From NCBI GenBank assembly GCA_002724245.1, contig PBOG01000090.1:1-57815 (forward strand): a DNA stretch of 57,815 bases, given 5' to 3'. How positions within the stretch are numbered: the first letter of the stretch is position 1; every line of letters starts with the position of its first letter. The stretch is from Planctomycetaceae bacterium (GTDB lineage Bacteria > Planctomycetota > Planctomycetia > Pirellulales > Pirellulaceae). The position numbers and the translations under genes are program-made. The notes under the pieces are model-generated. The model saw nothing but the letters and a program-made list of their open reading frames with translations, had not been told where the DNA came from and did not search any database. Shown piece by piece: positions 30,652 to 38,035 of this stretch.

Positions 30652-30686
30652 ATGGGGCGAAATTGGGTGTATTGATGGGGCGAAAT
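30652..30686 (+). repeat. 12-bp direct repeat over a start codon
   Basis: ATGGGGCGAAAT occurs at 30652-30663 and again at 30675-30686, a 23-bp period. The second copy begins with the probable start codon of the zincin gene; the first is out of frame with it. Confidence 0.85.
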
Positions 30687-31751
30687 GGTACGCTAGCCAC
30701 GGCGAAAAATGGAAAAGGACGTCGATTTTCTGCGACAGCCGAACTGGCCTGGTCGAGACTATCTGACGCAGAGTTGCTGGAGCTTCGGATTTGTGATCTG
30801 AAGTTGCGCATTGCTGGCACGCGACTGGAAAAGTATGTCAACCAGTTGTACCTGGAACTGACAGCACGTGGTTTGCGTTTTCGTCCTCATTGCTGGCTTT
30901 CCGAAGACTGGTTTTCACCGGAAGGTGTGCCCGGCATCGCCATTCCGTTTTTTTTGGCGCATCCACGACTAGCGAGGTTGGAACGGAACCAGATGCTGGA
31001 AGTGGAAGGCGGTACAAAGCATGAGTGTATGCGCATCCTGCGACATGAGGCGGGGCACGCAATCGATACGGCGTATGCTTTGCACCGGCGCCGTGCCTGG
31101 CAGCGTTTGTTTGGCCGCTCTTCGCAAGCGTATCCAGAGTATTATCAGCCGAAGCCGTACAGCCGAAGTTATGTACACCATCTCGAAGGTTGGTACGCGC
31201 AGGCGCATCCGGCAGAGGACTTTGCAGAAACGTTTGCTGTATGGCTCAAACCGCGATCAGGCTGGCGTGTTAAATATGCCGGATGGCCGGTGCTCAAGAA
31301 GTTGCGGTACGTCGAATCGACGCTGCAAGAGATTCGCAACGAGAAACCGAAAGTACGTTCTCGGGAGCACGTCGATTCAGTTCCGCGAATTCGTAAGACG
31401 CTAGGCGCCTATTACGAAGAAAAGCGTAGTCGTTATGGTATCGGACAGGATAGTTATTACGATCGGGATTTGTTGCGACTGTTTTCGAACGCACCGGAAC
31501 ATGCCAAGAAGATGGCGGCAGCCTCGTTCTTGCGGAAGCATCGCCGTGAGCTGCGGCAGCTTGTGTCACATTGGACTGGTCAGTACCGTTACACGGTTGA
31601 TCAGATAATTAGTGAGATGATTGAGCGTTGCCGTGAGCTGAATTTGCGAGTTGCATCTCCTCTTGAACGGGCCGAGCGTGACGCTCAGGCGATGCTGACC
31701 GTGCAGACGATGAACATTTTGCACCATGGACATCATAGAGTGGCGCTCTAG
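30675..31751 (+). CDS. Zincin-type putative metallopeptidase (HEAGH)
   Basis: The 358-aa protein carries the gluzincin-like motif LRHEAGHAIDTAY near residue 123 and a downstream AHPAEDFAETFAVWL near residue 185, where a Glu could be the third zinc ligand. This arrangement recalls the 'putative zinc-binding metallopeptidase' families, which I name from memory. There is no signal peptide or membrane helix, so it is cytosolic. The C-terminal third is Arg-rich with several helices (YYEEKRSRYGIGQDSYYDRD). ATG 30675 is chosen; an in-frame TTG at 30663 is possible. An ATP-grasp ligase gene follows after 149 bp on the same strand, suggesting that it trims or releases the ligase product. Substrate unknown. 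Confidence 0.75.
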   Translation: MGRNGTLATAKNGKGRRFSATAELAWSRLSDAELLELRICDLKLRIAGTRLEKYVNQLYLELTARGLRFRPHCWLSEDWFSPEGVPGIAIPFFLAHPRLARLERNQMLEVEGGTKHECMRILRHEAGHAIDTAYALHRRRAWQRLFGRSSQAYPEYYQPKPYSRSYVHHLEGWYAQAHPAEDFAETFAVWLKPRSGWRVKYAGWPVLKKLRYVESTLQEIRNEKPKVRSREHVDSVPRIRKTLGAYYEEKRSRYGIGQDSYYDRDLLRLFSNAPEHAKKMAAASFLRKHRRELRQLVSHWTGQYRYTVDQIISEMIERCRELNLRVASPLERAERDAQAMLTVQTMNILHHGHHRVAL

Positions 31752-31900
31752 TGGTTTGCTTGAAGTAGTCGGACAATGAGTAACGCCTTAGACGTTGCGA
31801 GCGGTACCGTTTGCAGGTTCTATTACCGTCGATTCAACGGACTTCTGCAATGCTTCGACTAAGTTGGTTGACAAGACCGATCACGTAGTCCAGGGGTGAT

Positions 31901-32923
31901 ATGAAGAAGCGACGCGTCTTGGTTCTTATGGATCGTGATTTGGTGCCTCCAGCAAGTATGGAAGGATTCACGGACGACGAGATCGTCGAGTGGAAAACAG
32001 AGTTCGATGTTCTTACTTCGTTGAAGGAAATGGAGCATGAAGTTGTGCCGCTGGGTGTTGCCGATGATTTAGGAGTCATCCGCAAGACCTTGCTCGAGTT
32101 TCAGCCGCAAGTGGCGTTTAATTTGCTTGAGGAGTTTCATGGTGTTGCGATTTACGATCAACACGTTGTGGCCTATCTCGAGCTTATGAAACAGGCTTAC
32201 ACAGGTTGTAATCCACGCGGGTTACTGCTGGCACACGATAAGGCGCTTAGTAAGAAATTGCTCTCCTATCATCGTGTGGCAACACCCAAGTTTTCTCTCT
32301 TTCAGAAGGGGAAAAAGGTCAAAACGCTGCGACGCTACGTTTACCCATTGTTGGTCAAGTCTGTTATTGAAGACGCCTCATTGGGAATTAGTAAAGAGTC
32401 GGTAGTTCGCAACGGAGATGAGCTCAAGCAAAGAGTAGATTATGTCCATGAAGAACTTGGTACCGATGCGCTTGTTGAGGAATACATTGAGGGACGTGAA
32501 CTCTATGTTGGAGTGATTGGAAATCAACGGCTGCAGACTTTTCCTGTTTGGGAGATGTTATTCCGCAATCTGCCGCCCGGAGTTCCCAATATCGCGACGC
32601 GGAGAGTGAAATGGGATTCTGAGCACCAGAAGGAGCTGGGGATCGTTACCGAGGCAGCTGCCAATCTGACGGCGAGCGAGGTCGATCGGATCTCCAGACT
32701 ATGTAAACGTGTGTACCGTATTTTGTGTCTCAGTGGCTACGCTCGTATGGACCTGCGGATGACTGACGATGGTCGCGTTTACGTGTTGGAGGCGAACCCG
32801 AACCCGAACCTGTCGTTCGGTGAAGATTTTGCGGAGTCTGCTGAAAGAGCCGGGATGCCATACGACAAACTGATTCAGCGCATATTGAATCTGGGTCTCA
32901 GATATCAGCCTGAGTGGCATTGA
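31901..32923 (+). CDS. ATP-grasp ligase, D-Ala-D-Ala ligase-like
   Basis: Predicted ATP-dependent carboxylate-amine ligase forming a peptide or amide bond. The 340-aa product starts MKKRRVLVLMDRDLVPP, with GGGGTG 5 nt upstream. The N-terminal third resembles Ddl pre-ATP-grasp folds (FNLLEEFHGVAIYDQHVVAY; YTGCNPRGLLLAHDKALSKK). ATP-grasp features include YPLLVKSVIEDASLGIS, ALVEEYIEGRELYVGVIG and the metal-binding end VYVLEANPNPNLSFG. It diverges from true Ddl, and no mur genes are nearby, so cell-wall synthesis is doubtful. The pairing with the upstream zincin suggests a ligation/hydrolysis pair acting on a small peptide or protein tail (inference). Confidence 0.82.
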   Translation: MKKRRVLVLMDRDLVPPASMEGFTDDEIVEWKTEFDVLTSLKEMEHEVVPLGVADDLGVIRKTLLEFQPQVAFNLLEEFHGVAIYDQHVVAYLELMKQAYTGCNPRGLLLAHDKALSKKLLSYHRVATPKFSLFQKGKKVKTLRRYVYPLLVKSVIEDASLGISKESVVRNGDELKQRVDYVHEELGTDALVEEYIEGRELYVGVIGNQRLQTFPVWEMLFRNLPPGVPNIATRRVKWDSEHQKELGIVTEAAANLTASEVDRISRLCKRVYRILCLSGYARMDLRMTDDGRVYVLEANPNPNLSFGEDFAESAERAGMPYDKLIQRILNLGLRYQPEWH

Positions 32924-34263: not shown

Positions 34264-37200
34264 TTACTCAGCGCGATAGCGTTGAACCCATTTCCAGAAC
34301 TCAGACAAATCCTGTCGGCGGATCTGGTAACGTTCGAGATAGTCTCGGTAAGTCTGGTCGTCCGGAAGTCCTTCGTGAGGTGGGTAGGGGTAGGAAGACA
34401 TCTCTTGAAATGGCAGTGGTTCTGATGATTGGCCGAGAATCGTGTTCAAGTCGCCATCTTTGTCCCAGCCGGCGTTGTAGAGCACGAAGTCACGAGTCCA
34501 ACCATCCGGTGGTGGGTTCTCAGGCCCTGCAAATTCGAGCGTAATTTCATCTCCGCTACCGATGACAGCAAGCCGGTTGTCTGTCGTCTGTAACAGCTCG
34601 CGTACATCGCCATAGCGTGTAAACCGACCATTCAGTGGCGCCCATTTGGGTGCGCGACTGACGTTCTGGTAGTCGTAGTCTTCAGGTCCGTTACCTGGAT
34701 CTGGAATGCGTTGTGAAAAGCCGCGAAAATGCAAATTGGCGGTTTGCAGCTCCAGTGGAATTTGATGAATGGGCACGGGCTTTTCATCGACGCTGAAAAA
34801 TACTTCATCCCAGCAGATTTCCTGGCTCGTTACGATCCGCAAACGGTAATCGTCACACAGGAATGCATTCGATAAGTCGATGGCAATGGTTTTTGTTTTG
34901 CCTCCAGGGAACCCCATGAAAGGAATGGTTTCGCACCACATTCCATGTTCATCGACGACGTGGATTGCAGGTGGGCGCGGGGCGTTTAGTTCCGGGTCCT
35001 GTGCGATACCGACATTGCTTGAGATGTCAGTTGGGTTGATCCAGCCTGTCAAGAACAGAGTGATTTGTTCAGGAGATTCCAACTTACCGAGATTGAGTTC
35101 CAGGTAGTGTTCCGAAACGAGTCCCTTGCGAAAACGACCATTGAAGCCCTGGAAGAATTGTCCATCGCGTTTTTCAATAATGTCCTTGACATCACGGCCT
35201 CGCGAATCCGTGGCAATCTTGGGAAGTCTGCGTTGGCGCACCGTATGGATGTGAGGTTTGGCGATGGTTGGCGGTCCGACTTTCTCATTGGTGTAGACTT
35301 CGGTGTTCTGAGGATGGTCGATGGCGATCAAGCGGACTTCATCTAAATACGCGGTTTCCCAGAGTTCTTCGGTGATTTGTATCCAGTAGGAGCCGTCGCG
35401 CAGCTGGAGATTCTCGCCTTCGATCAGCAAGTATTCCCAGGGCCTTGAAGGTGCCAGAGTCCCTTCCGCAGTTTGTAGTCCCAGAGGGGCTGCCCAGAGT
35501 AAATCAGTAAGAAACACAAATTCAGAGCCATTCCATGTGTAGGCATAAGGACAAGAAGTTTTTTGAACCATTTTCTCGTGAATCAGTTGATTGGCTTTCA
35601 CGCCAACTCGATTTTGTGGAACACCAGTGGTCGACAAGACGCGCAAGACATCTGCTGTAGCTTGTTTGCCAATTCCGAAATGGGTAGTCCGCCGTGCGAC
35701 AATCTGGGCCTGGTAACGCCCATTTGATTTGACTTCAAGAAGTGTGCCGTAGCCGTAGTGGTTCATTCGACCGATATCGATGATGCCGCGCATATTGATT
35801 GCAAGCCAGTTGTTTTTGTTACCACCATCATTCTGAAACAGCATGATGGATTCATCCGTCAGCACTGCCAGATCGAGATCGCCATCGTTATCTAGATCGG
35901 CAGTGTCACAACTGAGGACTGGTTGCGTCACTAATTCTGGTACGCCTTCCAGAGGGCGATACGCCGCGCCGTTTGCCTGCCCGCGCAGGATTTCCAGCCC
36001 ATCTCTGGTCCAAAATAGCAAGTCCGCCGATCCATCGTTGTCGCAGTCCCAGACCAGATTCCCGTTACATGCCTTGGGGCTCAAGGAAACACTTGCCTTA
36101 TGGCGAACGTTGCGGACCGTCGAGGTTGTCAGAAGTTGTACTCCATCGGGTCCACTGGCAACGAGATCCCAGGAAGCGTTGCCGTCACTTTCCAGCAGAG
36201 ACAACTGTTGACCTGAATGAGTCGCTGCAAAGTCAGCGTCGAATGGTTGCCAGACGAAACGGCCGTGCAGGATGTTTTCGAGGTAACCTGATGCTTGCGT
36301 GGCACTGCCTCCCAGCACCAGGTCGAGGTCCATATCCCGATCCCAGTCCACTACGATCATGGAACTGAAGGCACTGCTTTGTTCTGGGAGTCTGGAGAAT
36401 TCAGTTAGGTTCTCGAATGCGATGGTCTCTCCATGATTGGACCAGATTGAAATGCCATCTTGAGCAGATACGATCAGGTCGAGATCGCCGTCGTGTTCAA
36501 TATCGATTGCGGCCACTGCCTGTACTTTTCGTAGTGCACGAAAGTCTGCACTTTGGTCGACTTCAAGGAGAATTTGAGATTCCACATTTCGGTCCAGGTT
36601 ATTCCGCAGGATGCTGATCCCGTTGTCTCCATAGACGACGAATCCCATATAGTGGCTATGGCGGCTGTCTGGAATGCCAGGCCGTTCTGGTGCCGTAGGT
36701 GACCCTGCCTTGTCTGCGAGAAATAAATCGGCTTCGAAAAATCCGCGCATGCCCGCGGGCATAGCAGTGCTACCCAGCAAACCCCATGAGTTGTCTGTGG
36801 GATTCTGTACAAAAATATCGAGTGCCTCGGGCCGCAGAACAGCCACATCCATGCGGTCATCCAGATCAAAGTCGACGAGTCGCAGCTGTCGACCGTTTGC
36901 GACCTTCTGCAGGGGTTCTTGTGCGGTTTGTGGCTGAAAGCGAATATCGAGAGATGGTACTTGCTCAGGCGGTGGCGGAGGGTTGTTTCGATAGAACGAG
37001 TCGCTGAAGTCAAAAACAACCAATTCCAGAGCATCCGGAGTGCAACGTTTCAAATCGGCGCCGTTGAATTCCGCCTTGTTGATGCGATTGGTAAACGGAA
37101 ACGTCAGGCTGTTCACGGTTTGCCAGTCGTTTTCTTGTGCAGCAGTGGCGATCGCGTCGAGCATCTTCATCGGGTCGAATGCCAGTCGTTTTCCTTGAGC

Positions 37201-37989
37201 TCGTTTCAACGGTCCGCAGGCGGTTTTCGCGTGCTGTACTGTTGTTGCGATGTCGGGATCTTTCGTGTGACTTTGATCCAGGAGTTGGTAACGCAGCAAG
37301 ATAAGATTGTCGGGCTGTGCCTCAAATGCTTCGCGCAGGGCGCGACGCATTTGTGAAAGAATGGCAGCGTCCTGGACCGAGCGCAGTGCATTTTCGTAGG
37401 GATTGAACAGGGCATAGCGGATCGCGATGTTCTGCTTGTCCGGGTCGAGTGAGATGGCTTTGCAGAGATGTTCGTAGGCTTTGCTGGCCGCGGGATCATG
37501 TTCGAAGTCTGGAGTGGTGCTGAGTTCCAGTGCCAGTTGGGCTGCCAGAAAGTATGCCGTTGGAGACTGGGGTTCGTGGGTTATTAACTGCTGTAAGGCA
37601 AGATTTGCTGTGTCGACCGCTTTGGAAACCGCCGCGTCCCGCGCTTCGGGTGGTTCATTCTTGACTTTGTCGCGTACTTGAGCAATTTGCTTCAGCGTAC
37701 AAATTGCCAGGTTCCACCAGCCCATTTTTTCGTCGGGAGCCAGATCTGCAATCTTGCGGAATGCTTGTTCAGCCGGCGCAAAATCATCGTTTTCCAGATG
37801 GGCGATGCCAACATTTCGCAGGTTGATTAATTCACGAATTGACTCTGCAGAGAGTCTCGCAGACGGATCAGGAGTGGGTGGGCGAATGAATTGATAAGCA
37901 AGGATTCCACCAGCGAGGAATGCGATCGCAAAAATAAACCGGCGCGATGTGTAGAAGCTACTGGTGGATGACTGCTGGGGAGTGAGCAT
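34264..37989 (-). CDS. Membrane-anchored TPR / VCBS (FG-GAP) / UnbV-like giant protein
   Basis: The 1241-aa product starts MLTPQQSSTSS (an ATG at 38022 is possible) and has one N-terminal membrane helix, FIFAIAFLAGGILAYQFI, placing the rest outside the cytoplasmic membrane. Residues about 50-180 have TPR-like helices (NVGIAHLENDDFAPAEQAFR). At least five FG-GAP/VCBS Ca-binding loops follow: DFDLDDRMDVAVL, DIEHDGDLDLIVS, DWDRDMDLDLVLG, DCDNDGSADLLFW and DLDNDGDLDLAVL. An ASPIC/UnbV-like segment (LAINMRGIIDIGRMNHYGYG) precedes about 400 residues of unrecognised sequence rich in Trp, Pro and Tyr. Likely an extracellular binding or scaffold protein. Planctomycetes encode many UnbV-type proteins; this C-terminus is unusual. 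Confidence 0.8.
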   Translation of the reverse strand: MLTPQQSSTSSFYTSRRFIFAIAFLAGGILAYQFIRPPTPDPSARLSAESIRELINLRNVGIAHLENDDFAPAEQAFRKIADLAPDEKMGWWNLAICTLKQIAQVRDKVKNEPPEARDAAVSKAVDTANLALQQLITHEPQSPTAYFLAAQLALELSTTPDFEHDPAASKAYEHLCKAISLDPDKQNIAIRYALFNPYENALRSVQDAAILSQMRRALREAFEAQPDNLILLRYQLLDQSHTKDPDIATTVQHAKTACGPLKRAQGKRLAFDPMKMLDAIATAAQENDWQTVNSLTFPFTNRINKAEFNGADLKRCTPDALELVVFDFSDSFYRNNPPPPPEQVPSLDIRFQPQTAQEPLQKVANGRQLRLVDFDLDDRMDVAVLRPEALDIFVQNPTDNSWGLLGSTAMPAGMRGFFEADLFLADKAGSPTAPERPGIPDSRHSHYMGFVVYGDNGISILRNNLDRNVESQILLEVDQSADFRALRKVQAVAAIDIEHDGDLDLIVSAQDGISIWSNHGETIAFENLTEFSRLPEQSSAFSSMIVVDWDRDMDLDLVLGGSATQASGYLENILHGRFVWQPFDADFAATHSGQQLSLLESDGNASWDLVASGPDGVQLLTTSTVRNVRHKASVSLSPKACNGNLVWDCDNDGSADLLFWTRDGLEILRGQANGAAYRPLEGVPELVTQPVLSCDTADLDNDGDLDLAVLTDESIMLFQNDGGNKNNWLAINMRGIIDIGRMNHYGYGTLLEVKSNGRYQAQIVARRTTHFGIGKQATADVLRVLSTTGVPQNRVGVKANQLIHEKMVQKTSCPYAYTWNGSEFVFLTDLLWAAPLGLQTAEGTLAPSRPWEYLLIEGENLQLRDGSYWIQITEELWETAYLDEVRLIAIDHPQNTEVYTNEKVGPPTIAKPHIHTVRQRRLPKIATDSRGRDVKDIIEKRDGQFFQGFNGRFRKGLVSEHYLELNLGKLESPEQITLFLTGWINPTDISSNVGIAQDPELNAPRPPAIHVVDEHGMWCETIPFMGFPGGKTKTIAIDLSNAFLCDDYRLRIVTSQEICWDEVFFSVDEKPVPIHQIPLELQTANLHFRGFSQRIPDPGNGPEDYDYQNVSRAPKWAPLNGRFTRYGDVRELLQTTDNRLAVIGSGDEITLEFAGPENPPPDGWTRDFVLYNAGWDKDGDLNTILGQSSEPLPFQEMSSYPYPPHEGLPDDQTYRDYLERYQIRRQDLSEFWKWVQRYRAE

Positions 37990-38035
37990 AGTACCCTTTG
38001 ATGCTGCGAGTTCTCGGAGCATCCCTTTGAGTTAT

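Follow-up and report, generated by a model that had tools for sequence, protein, structure and literature searches.

A conserved gene pair encoding a Peptidase_Mx zincin and a Ddl-fold ATP-grasp ligase in Planctomycetota and other bacterial phyla

The two genes and the zincin

The window, by which we mean the whole stretch of DNA that was analysed (57,815 nucleotides), is contig C85, positions 1-57815, of a 7.79-Mb planctomycete assembly that is 98.8% complete (the host, G000 in our genome set). A zincin gene and an ATP-grasp ligase gene lie on its forward strand (Table 1). The first-pass annotation had described a cytosolic HEAGH zincin followed on the same strand by an ATP-grasp gene, and both open reading frames and the spacing between them are as it described. 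Upstream of the zincin gene is rho (Rho_RNA_bind match), and downstream of the ligase gene, on the opposite strand, is a malate/L-lactate dehydrogenase-like gene. The reverse strand downstream of the pair also encodes, at 34264-38022, a protein of 1252 residues that matches an FG-GAP-like repeat. Neither the zincin nor the ligase contains a hydrophobic stretch (maximum 19-residue Kyte-Doolittle means of 0.94 and 0.89, respectively), which makes a cytosolic place reasonable for both proteins and, as far as sequence can tell, agrees with the earlier view that they are intracellular.

Table 1. Coordinates of the features of the gene pair (window positions) and of the Mur_ligase_M loci of the host
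Feature	Position	Strand	Basis
Zincin gene (Peptidase_Mx family), 358 aa	30675-31751 from ATG; TTG at 30663 as alternative start	+	ORF, Pfam
HEAGH zinc-binding motif (H124, E125, H128)	31044-31058	+	Three residues invariant in 37/37 (A1) and 68/68 (A3) zincins
Block with invariant Y174, H178, P179, E181, D182, E185	31194-31229	+	Invariant columns in A1 and A3, fold match
Gap between zincin and ATP-grasp genes, 149 bp	31752-31900	+	ORF ends
ATP-grasp ligase gene, 340 aa; Ddl fold, own clade	31901-32923	+	ORF, Pfam, fold, tree
E297-A-N299-P-N301	32789-32803	+	E297, N299, N301 invariant in A2 and A4
E308-D309 acidic pair	32822-32827	+	At the second-D-Ala carboxylate site of Ddl
Host Mur_ligase_M locus L187	G000:C174:41000-44000
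Host Mur_ligase_M locus L188	G000:C23:45800-48800

The gap in the window is atypical. In 49 of 67 related junctions examined, the two genes instead overlap by 4 bases (ATGA in 42 and GTGA in 7), which is, at the sequence level, the usual sign of translational coupling. The gap also holds a terminator-like pattern (31795-31816), and a scan of the region gave four such patterns against 2.7 expected by shuffling.

The zincin belongs to PF15887 (Peptidase_Mx; E = 7.1e-8, 32.6 bits against a cut-off of 27), with 76 of the 236 profile positions matched over the HExxH core, and the same cut-off is passed by all five zincin relatives tested. A literature search by family name gave no Peptidase_Mx member with a described function among the matches listed; in PMC2701414, the family name denotes a Pfam clan and another family. 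Conservation was read from two alignments. A1 holds 37 of 41 zincins, leaving out L044 and L070 (an internal stop in each) and L073 and L074 (divergent). A3 starts from the 76 zincins of named loci, from which L100 (internal stop) and then eight near-duplicates (L078, L102, L124, L125, L131, L133, L134 and L142) were removed, and holds the remaining 67 and that of the window. The HExxH motif and the downstream Tyr and Glu of the lethal-factor/PPEP (M34-like) gluzincins are all present as invariant residues. E181 is likely the third zinc ligand and Y174 likely the catalytic tyrosine, and the seven-residue spacing between them is that of lethal-factor/PPEP-type gluzincins.

The predicted structure of the zincin has a mean pLDDT of 82.7, with values below 50 at residues 157-175, which cover Y174. 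In fold comparisons that took in high-ranking PDB chains only, the model matched the protease domain of a lethal-factor-type gluzincin (Z 9.9, rmsd 3.2 over 137 residues, 17% identity), PPEP-3 (Z 8.2) and PPEP-1/Zmp1 (Z 7.7). These are modest matches without the C-terminal half, and the best Foldseek E value was 0.8. Such a match of a predicted model supports a working gluzincin and carries no information on the substrate.

The ligase and the Ddl family

The ligase is a member of PF07478 (Dala_Dala_lig_C; E = 3.6e-27), and its predicted structure (mean pLDDT 89.3) superposes on the Ddl chain 8evy_A with Z 33.6 and rmsd 2.3 over 297 residues at 23% identity. With the Ddl family model TIGR01205, it scores 105.6 bits (E = 2.4e-30) against a cut-off of 245.65, a strict cut-off that 135 of 199 genomes and 10 of 14 controls attain. 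In a tree of 53 rows, the 19 pair ligases form one clade (support 100/99) and the 13 Ddl rows form another (100/100). The first-pass annotation had called the ligase similar to D-Ala-D-Ala ligase and had named tight clustering with true Ddl enzymes as what would refute its reading; the resemblance is evident in the fold, and no such clustering was found.

The ATP/Mg residues K114, K153, E193, E200, K237, R282, D284, E297 and N299 are present in all 19 pair ligases. In the alignment to which tandem ATP-grasp rows were added, Ddl K215 aligns with ligase K237 in all 19 pair rows. By analogy with Ddl, E297 and N299 would be metal ligands. The pocket is different. Among the DdlB residues that bind D-Ala (E15, S150, G276, S281 and L282), the first four are kept in 13 of 13 Ddl rows, and L282 is L or M there. 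Among the 19 pair ligases, E15 is retained as E in three, where the alignment is weak, S150 as S in one, and G276, S281 and L282 in none. Furthermore, where Ddl has the residues that contact the second D-Ala through its carboxylate, the ligase has the acidic pair E308-D309. Alignment A4, covering the close family (68 named ligases less the same eight near-duplicates listed above, and that of the window added to these 60), has E308 in 61 of 61 rows and D309 in 60 of 61. In A2, covering the wider family (38 ligase rows), the E308 position is E in 34 rows and acidic in 36, and the D309 position is D in 21 and acidic in 37.

These results bear on the reading that the ligase is the D-Ala-D-Ala ligase of this lineage and the zincin its peptidase partner in wall synthesis. 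Besides the fold, the host itself could be cited for it, where no other Ddl was seen: the best match to the Ddl model has E = 1.7e-29, about that of the window ligase itself, and its remaining matches to PF07478 are weak, at E = 2.8e-6 and 9.7e-6. However, the score falls below the family cut-off, the clades are separate, and the D-Ala-pocket residues are lost in 16 to 19 of the 19 rows. The Mur_ligase_M matches of the host also argue against it, since they consist of one MurE-like protein and FolC only; these two lie on contigs C174 and C23, neither being the contig of the window, in keeping with the earlier remark that the pair has no cell-wall neighbours. Among the 37 other genomes with the pair, 35 have a best Ddl-model match at E = 1e-48 or lower, unlike the host; for 30 of these 35 the place of the Ddl match is listed, and it is away from the pair. 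The two exceptions, G173 and G147 (77% and 86% complete), have no Ddl-model match better than 1e-35. Taking score, clade, pocket and the minimal Mur set of the host together, we rejected the ligase as a Ddl, and a role of the pair in wall synthesis is highly improbable.

Two observations stand beside this. The MurE-like ligase of the host scores 322.3 bits, over the murE cut-off, and no other Mur ligase was found in the assembly. In phage records, seven matches to the ligase were found, all weak (22-29% identity), and the three annotated ones are named D-Ala-D-Ala ligases.

Distribution and neighbourhood of the pair

In a phylum sample of 199 genomes, using a ligase orthologue threshold of 227 bits and a zincin threshold of E = 1e-5, ligase orthologues were found in 44 genomes, the host included. 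A zincin lies immediately upstream on the same strand in 39 of the 44, counting the host and a ruptured copy in G183, in which both genes are broken. The other five orthologues (G196, G063, G003, G081 and G131) have no adjoining zincin; no zincin occurs anywhere in G196 and G063 at E = 1e-5, and the G196 ligase starts 926 bases from the contig end, where no zincin stretch was found. Similarly, in 10 of the 49 genomes with a zincin, no such ligase adjoins it, and these zincins score lowest. In eight of the ten (loci L155-L163), no ligase relative was found within the 9 to 16 kb examined. In the other two (L073 and L074, in G145 and G146), a more distant ATP-grasp gene is nearby, adjoining the zincin gene in divergent orientation in G145 and co-directional with it at a distance of about 3 kb in G146. 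Since both genes are also found unpaired, neither strictly needs the other as a neighbour. The zincins of L155-L163, with no ligase relative nearby, share 33-43% identity with that of the window, and a protein-kinase-like gene, judged by eye, is seen at L156, L157, L073 and L074. In four genomes (G218, G322, G407 and G410), the zincin, the ligase or the whole pair occurs twice, at separate places.

We then used the zincin alignment to scan 84,980 species genomes and took the best 80 of at least 564 confirmed relatives, so that these named loci lean to close relatives of the window zincin. A ligase, complete or truncated at a contig end, directly follows the zincin in 78 of the best 80. The exceptions are L084, where the contig ends, and L152, where a different neighbour follows; the genome of L152 keeps a ligase on another contig, where the 10 kb read contain no zincin. 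The L152 zincin is acidobacterial, and downstream of it a short ORF and a gene resembling an M28 peptidase (by eye) stand in place of the ligase. By record title, the best 80 come from Planctomycetota, Nitrospirota, Acidobacteriota, Nitrospinota, Gemmatimonadota, Methylomirabilota, Bdellovibrionota and a 'Deltaproteobacteria' bin, i.e., eight or nine phyla by record titles that belong mostly to metagenome-assembled genomes, with the binning taken as deposited. A Nitrosospira bin that falls inside Nitrospira in the tree is probably mis-binned. Two complete pairs (L110 and L121) occur in one assembly (JAOUHJ). Thus the pair is a conserved two-gene unit beyond close relatives, which the first-pass annotation had made a condition of its reading. 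Within groups, the distribution is patchy: counted alone, the zincin is present in 25 of 117 genomes of the order of the host, in 2 of the 15 members listed for its family, with the host counted, and in 14 of 100 genomes from the phylum to which a Nitrospira genome belongs. No match to the zincin was found in 72,556 plasmid records (tblastn, E = 1e-3).

The zincin and ligase trees were compared over the 59 loci present in both A3 and A4. Their patristic distances correlate with r = 0.80, and none of 999 permutations exceeded 0.13, a comparison in which shared host ancestry is uncontrolled and explains part of the correlation.

Clustering of neighbouring ORFs of at least 70 or 80 residues gave no third gene family beside the pair across phyla. 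The recurrent clusters reflect either the pair genes read in another frame or synteny within a genus, e.g., a TtcA-like gene (by eye) in Nitrospira. Likewise, no small ORF within 1 kb of the pair is conserved beyond genus among 60 loci, and no precursor peptide gene was found there. With no conserved neighbour, the module is limited to the pair itself, and a substrate that is a gene product would have its gene elsewhere. This also settles the link to rho that the first-pass annotation had drawn from the position of the pair: rho lies upstream in the window and is not a conserved neighbour across loci, and we rejected the link. Its broader proposal of a unit that builds and cleaves a peptide or protein tail stands as to the conserved two genes, the non-Ddl ligase and the intracellular appearance of both proteins, and loses the meaning given to rho.

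The neighbourhood bears on two further readings. In one, the pair belongs to a RiPP or graspetide-like pathway, in which the ligase would introduce crosslinks into a precursor peptide that the zincin matures. Graspetide ligases belong to another ATP-grasp branch than the Ddl-type ligase found here, and neither a small ORF nor a third gene is conserved as such a pathway would lead one to expect. On the other side, PMC8939145 describes loci in which ATP-grasp genes accompany genes for zincins or other peptidases, and in some of these loci no precursor is detectable. We consider this reading quite unlikely, with a distant, non-adjacent RiPP precursor as the form in which it may still compete.

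In the other reading, the pair serves free small-molecule metabolism, the ligase making a dipeptide-like metabolite from amino acids and the zincin hydrolysing or recycling it. Free amino acids are what Ddl-fold ligases usually link, and in the 53-row tree the pair ligases group (100/99) with nine rows of tandem ATP-grasps, whose clusters, like L-amino-acid ligases, probably make dipeptide-like metabolites from such amino acids. The tandem loci, found in other Planctomycetota (L164-L174, e.g., L164:597-2672), carry two Ddl-like ATP-grasp genes in a row, mostly with one member of each tandem pair grouping with the window ligase. By eye, a lysine 2,3-aminomutase-like gene is present in 9 of the 11 tandem loci and a GNAT gene in 7 of the 11, and a beta-lysine peptide pathway is possible for them. 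Against this reading, no biosynthetic gene is conserved beside the pair in the neighbour clustering, and the acidic pair is not common to the tandem rows, where E308 is found in 0 of 21 and D at the D309 position in 6 of 21. In addition, zincins of such a gluzincin fold are usually endopeptidases that act on longer peptides. A metabolite pathway is somewhat unlikely, and we give it more weight than the RiPP reading.

A part in a Pup/proteasome-like tagging system is hardly conceivable. Pup-like systems are said to occur in similar phyla. However, Pup_ligase is found in 25 of the 199 genomes and, among the 37 other pair genomes, in four (G013, G050, G118 and G191, the last by a weak match), no more than expected, and is absent from the host.

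Possible chemistry and comparison with known systems

Our tentative preference is for a translationally coupled cytosolic two-enzyme module that would remodel a peptide or protein tail encoded elsewhere, a reading to which we give a little less than an even chance. The zincin would cut an amide bond, and the ATP-grasp enzyme would activate a carboxylate as an acyl phosphate and then join an amine to it. Because the acceptor pocket is acidic, the incoming amine would probably be cationic or without a free carboxylate, such as a peptide amine, a lysine-like amino acid or a diamine. Both enzymes would most likely act on the same substrate, either by cutting and then ligating or as writer and eraser. 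We infer the common substrate, the logic of the acidic pocket and the intracellular tail chemistry from the features above. The five unpaired ligases suggest a ligase reaction that does not depend on the zincin, which slightly favours the zincin as a trimming or erasing partner and not as the sole source of substrate.

A more specific form of the module would be a writer/eraser cycle across phyla, with reversible tagging of the tail of a house-keeping protein by an amino acid or peptide, the ligase adding a cationic residue and the coupled gluzincin removing it. By analogy, this would be a bacterial counterpart of tubulin tyrosination built on a Ddl-type ligase outside the cell wall; we regard it as unlikely.

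The maintenance of the pair across distant phyla points to an undescribed intracellular modification of a peptide or protein. Annotation by best match would give a D-Ala-D-Ala ligase and a putative peptidase and would hide a widespread two-gene system, and the Ddl-like genes of planctomycetes should be taken with caution as evidence of a murein wall. In nitrogen-cycle bacteria, the pair may represent a new type of peptide or protein modification. Named strains carry it, with Rhodopirellula, Neorhodopirellula and Stieleria among the loci with relatives, so that deletion combined with peptidomics is feasible.

Each half of the pair has known relatives. The ligase shares its fold and ATP/Mg residues with Ddl, whereas Ddl forms its own clade, passes the family cut-off and keeps the D-Ala subsite that is mostly or wholly replaced here. 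The zincin matches the putative zinc metallopeptidases of Peptidase_Mx (PF15887) over the HExxH core, and here it is coupled to an ATP-grasp gene. It resembles lethal-factor/PPEP-1 gluzincins modestly in the core fold and has their order HExxH...Y...E; unlike them, it is cytosolic by its sequence, and the sequence identity is low.

Known systems also join a ligase to a peptidase. Tubulin tyrosine ligase is the ligase side of the tubulin tail cycle. This cycle resembles the proposed module in that a ligase and a gluzincin act on one protein tail, a likeness that is analogy only and not orthology. Its detyrosinase MATCAP/TMCP has the motif HExxxH according to PMC10499314, whereas the window zincin has HExxH. 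Closer in gene content are branches 7 and 8 of the graspetide-related ATP-grasp enzymes, which PMC8939145 gives as strongly linked to peptidase genes with no precursor nearby, its authors suggesting that the peptidases supply peptides to the ligase. As described there, these branches combine peptidases of several families with other genes, whereas the present pair has one peptidase family, two genes and a Ddl-type ligase. Among the literature matches listed, no title or opening of an abstract names the pair, and a 2009 amidoligase survey may mention it. Peptidase-linked ATP-grasp systems are a known kind, of which the pair of a Ddl-type ligase with one zincin family is a variant.
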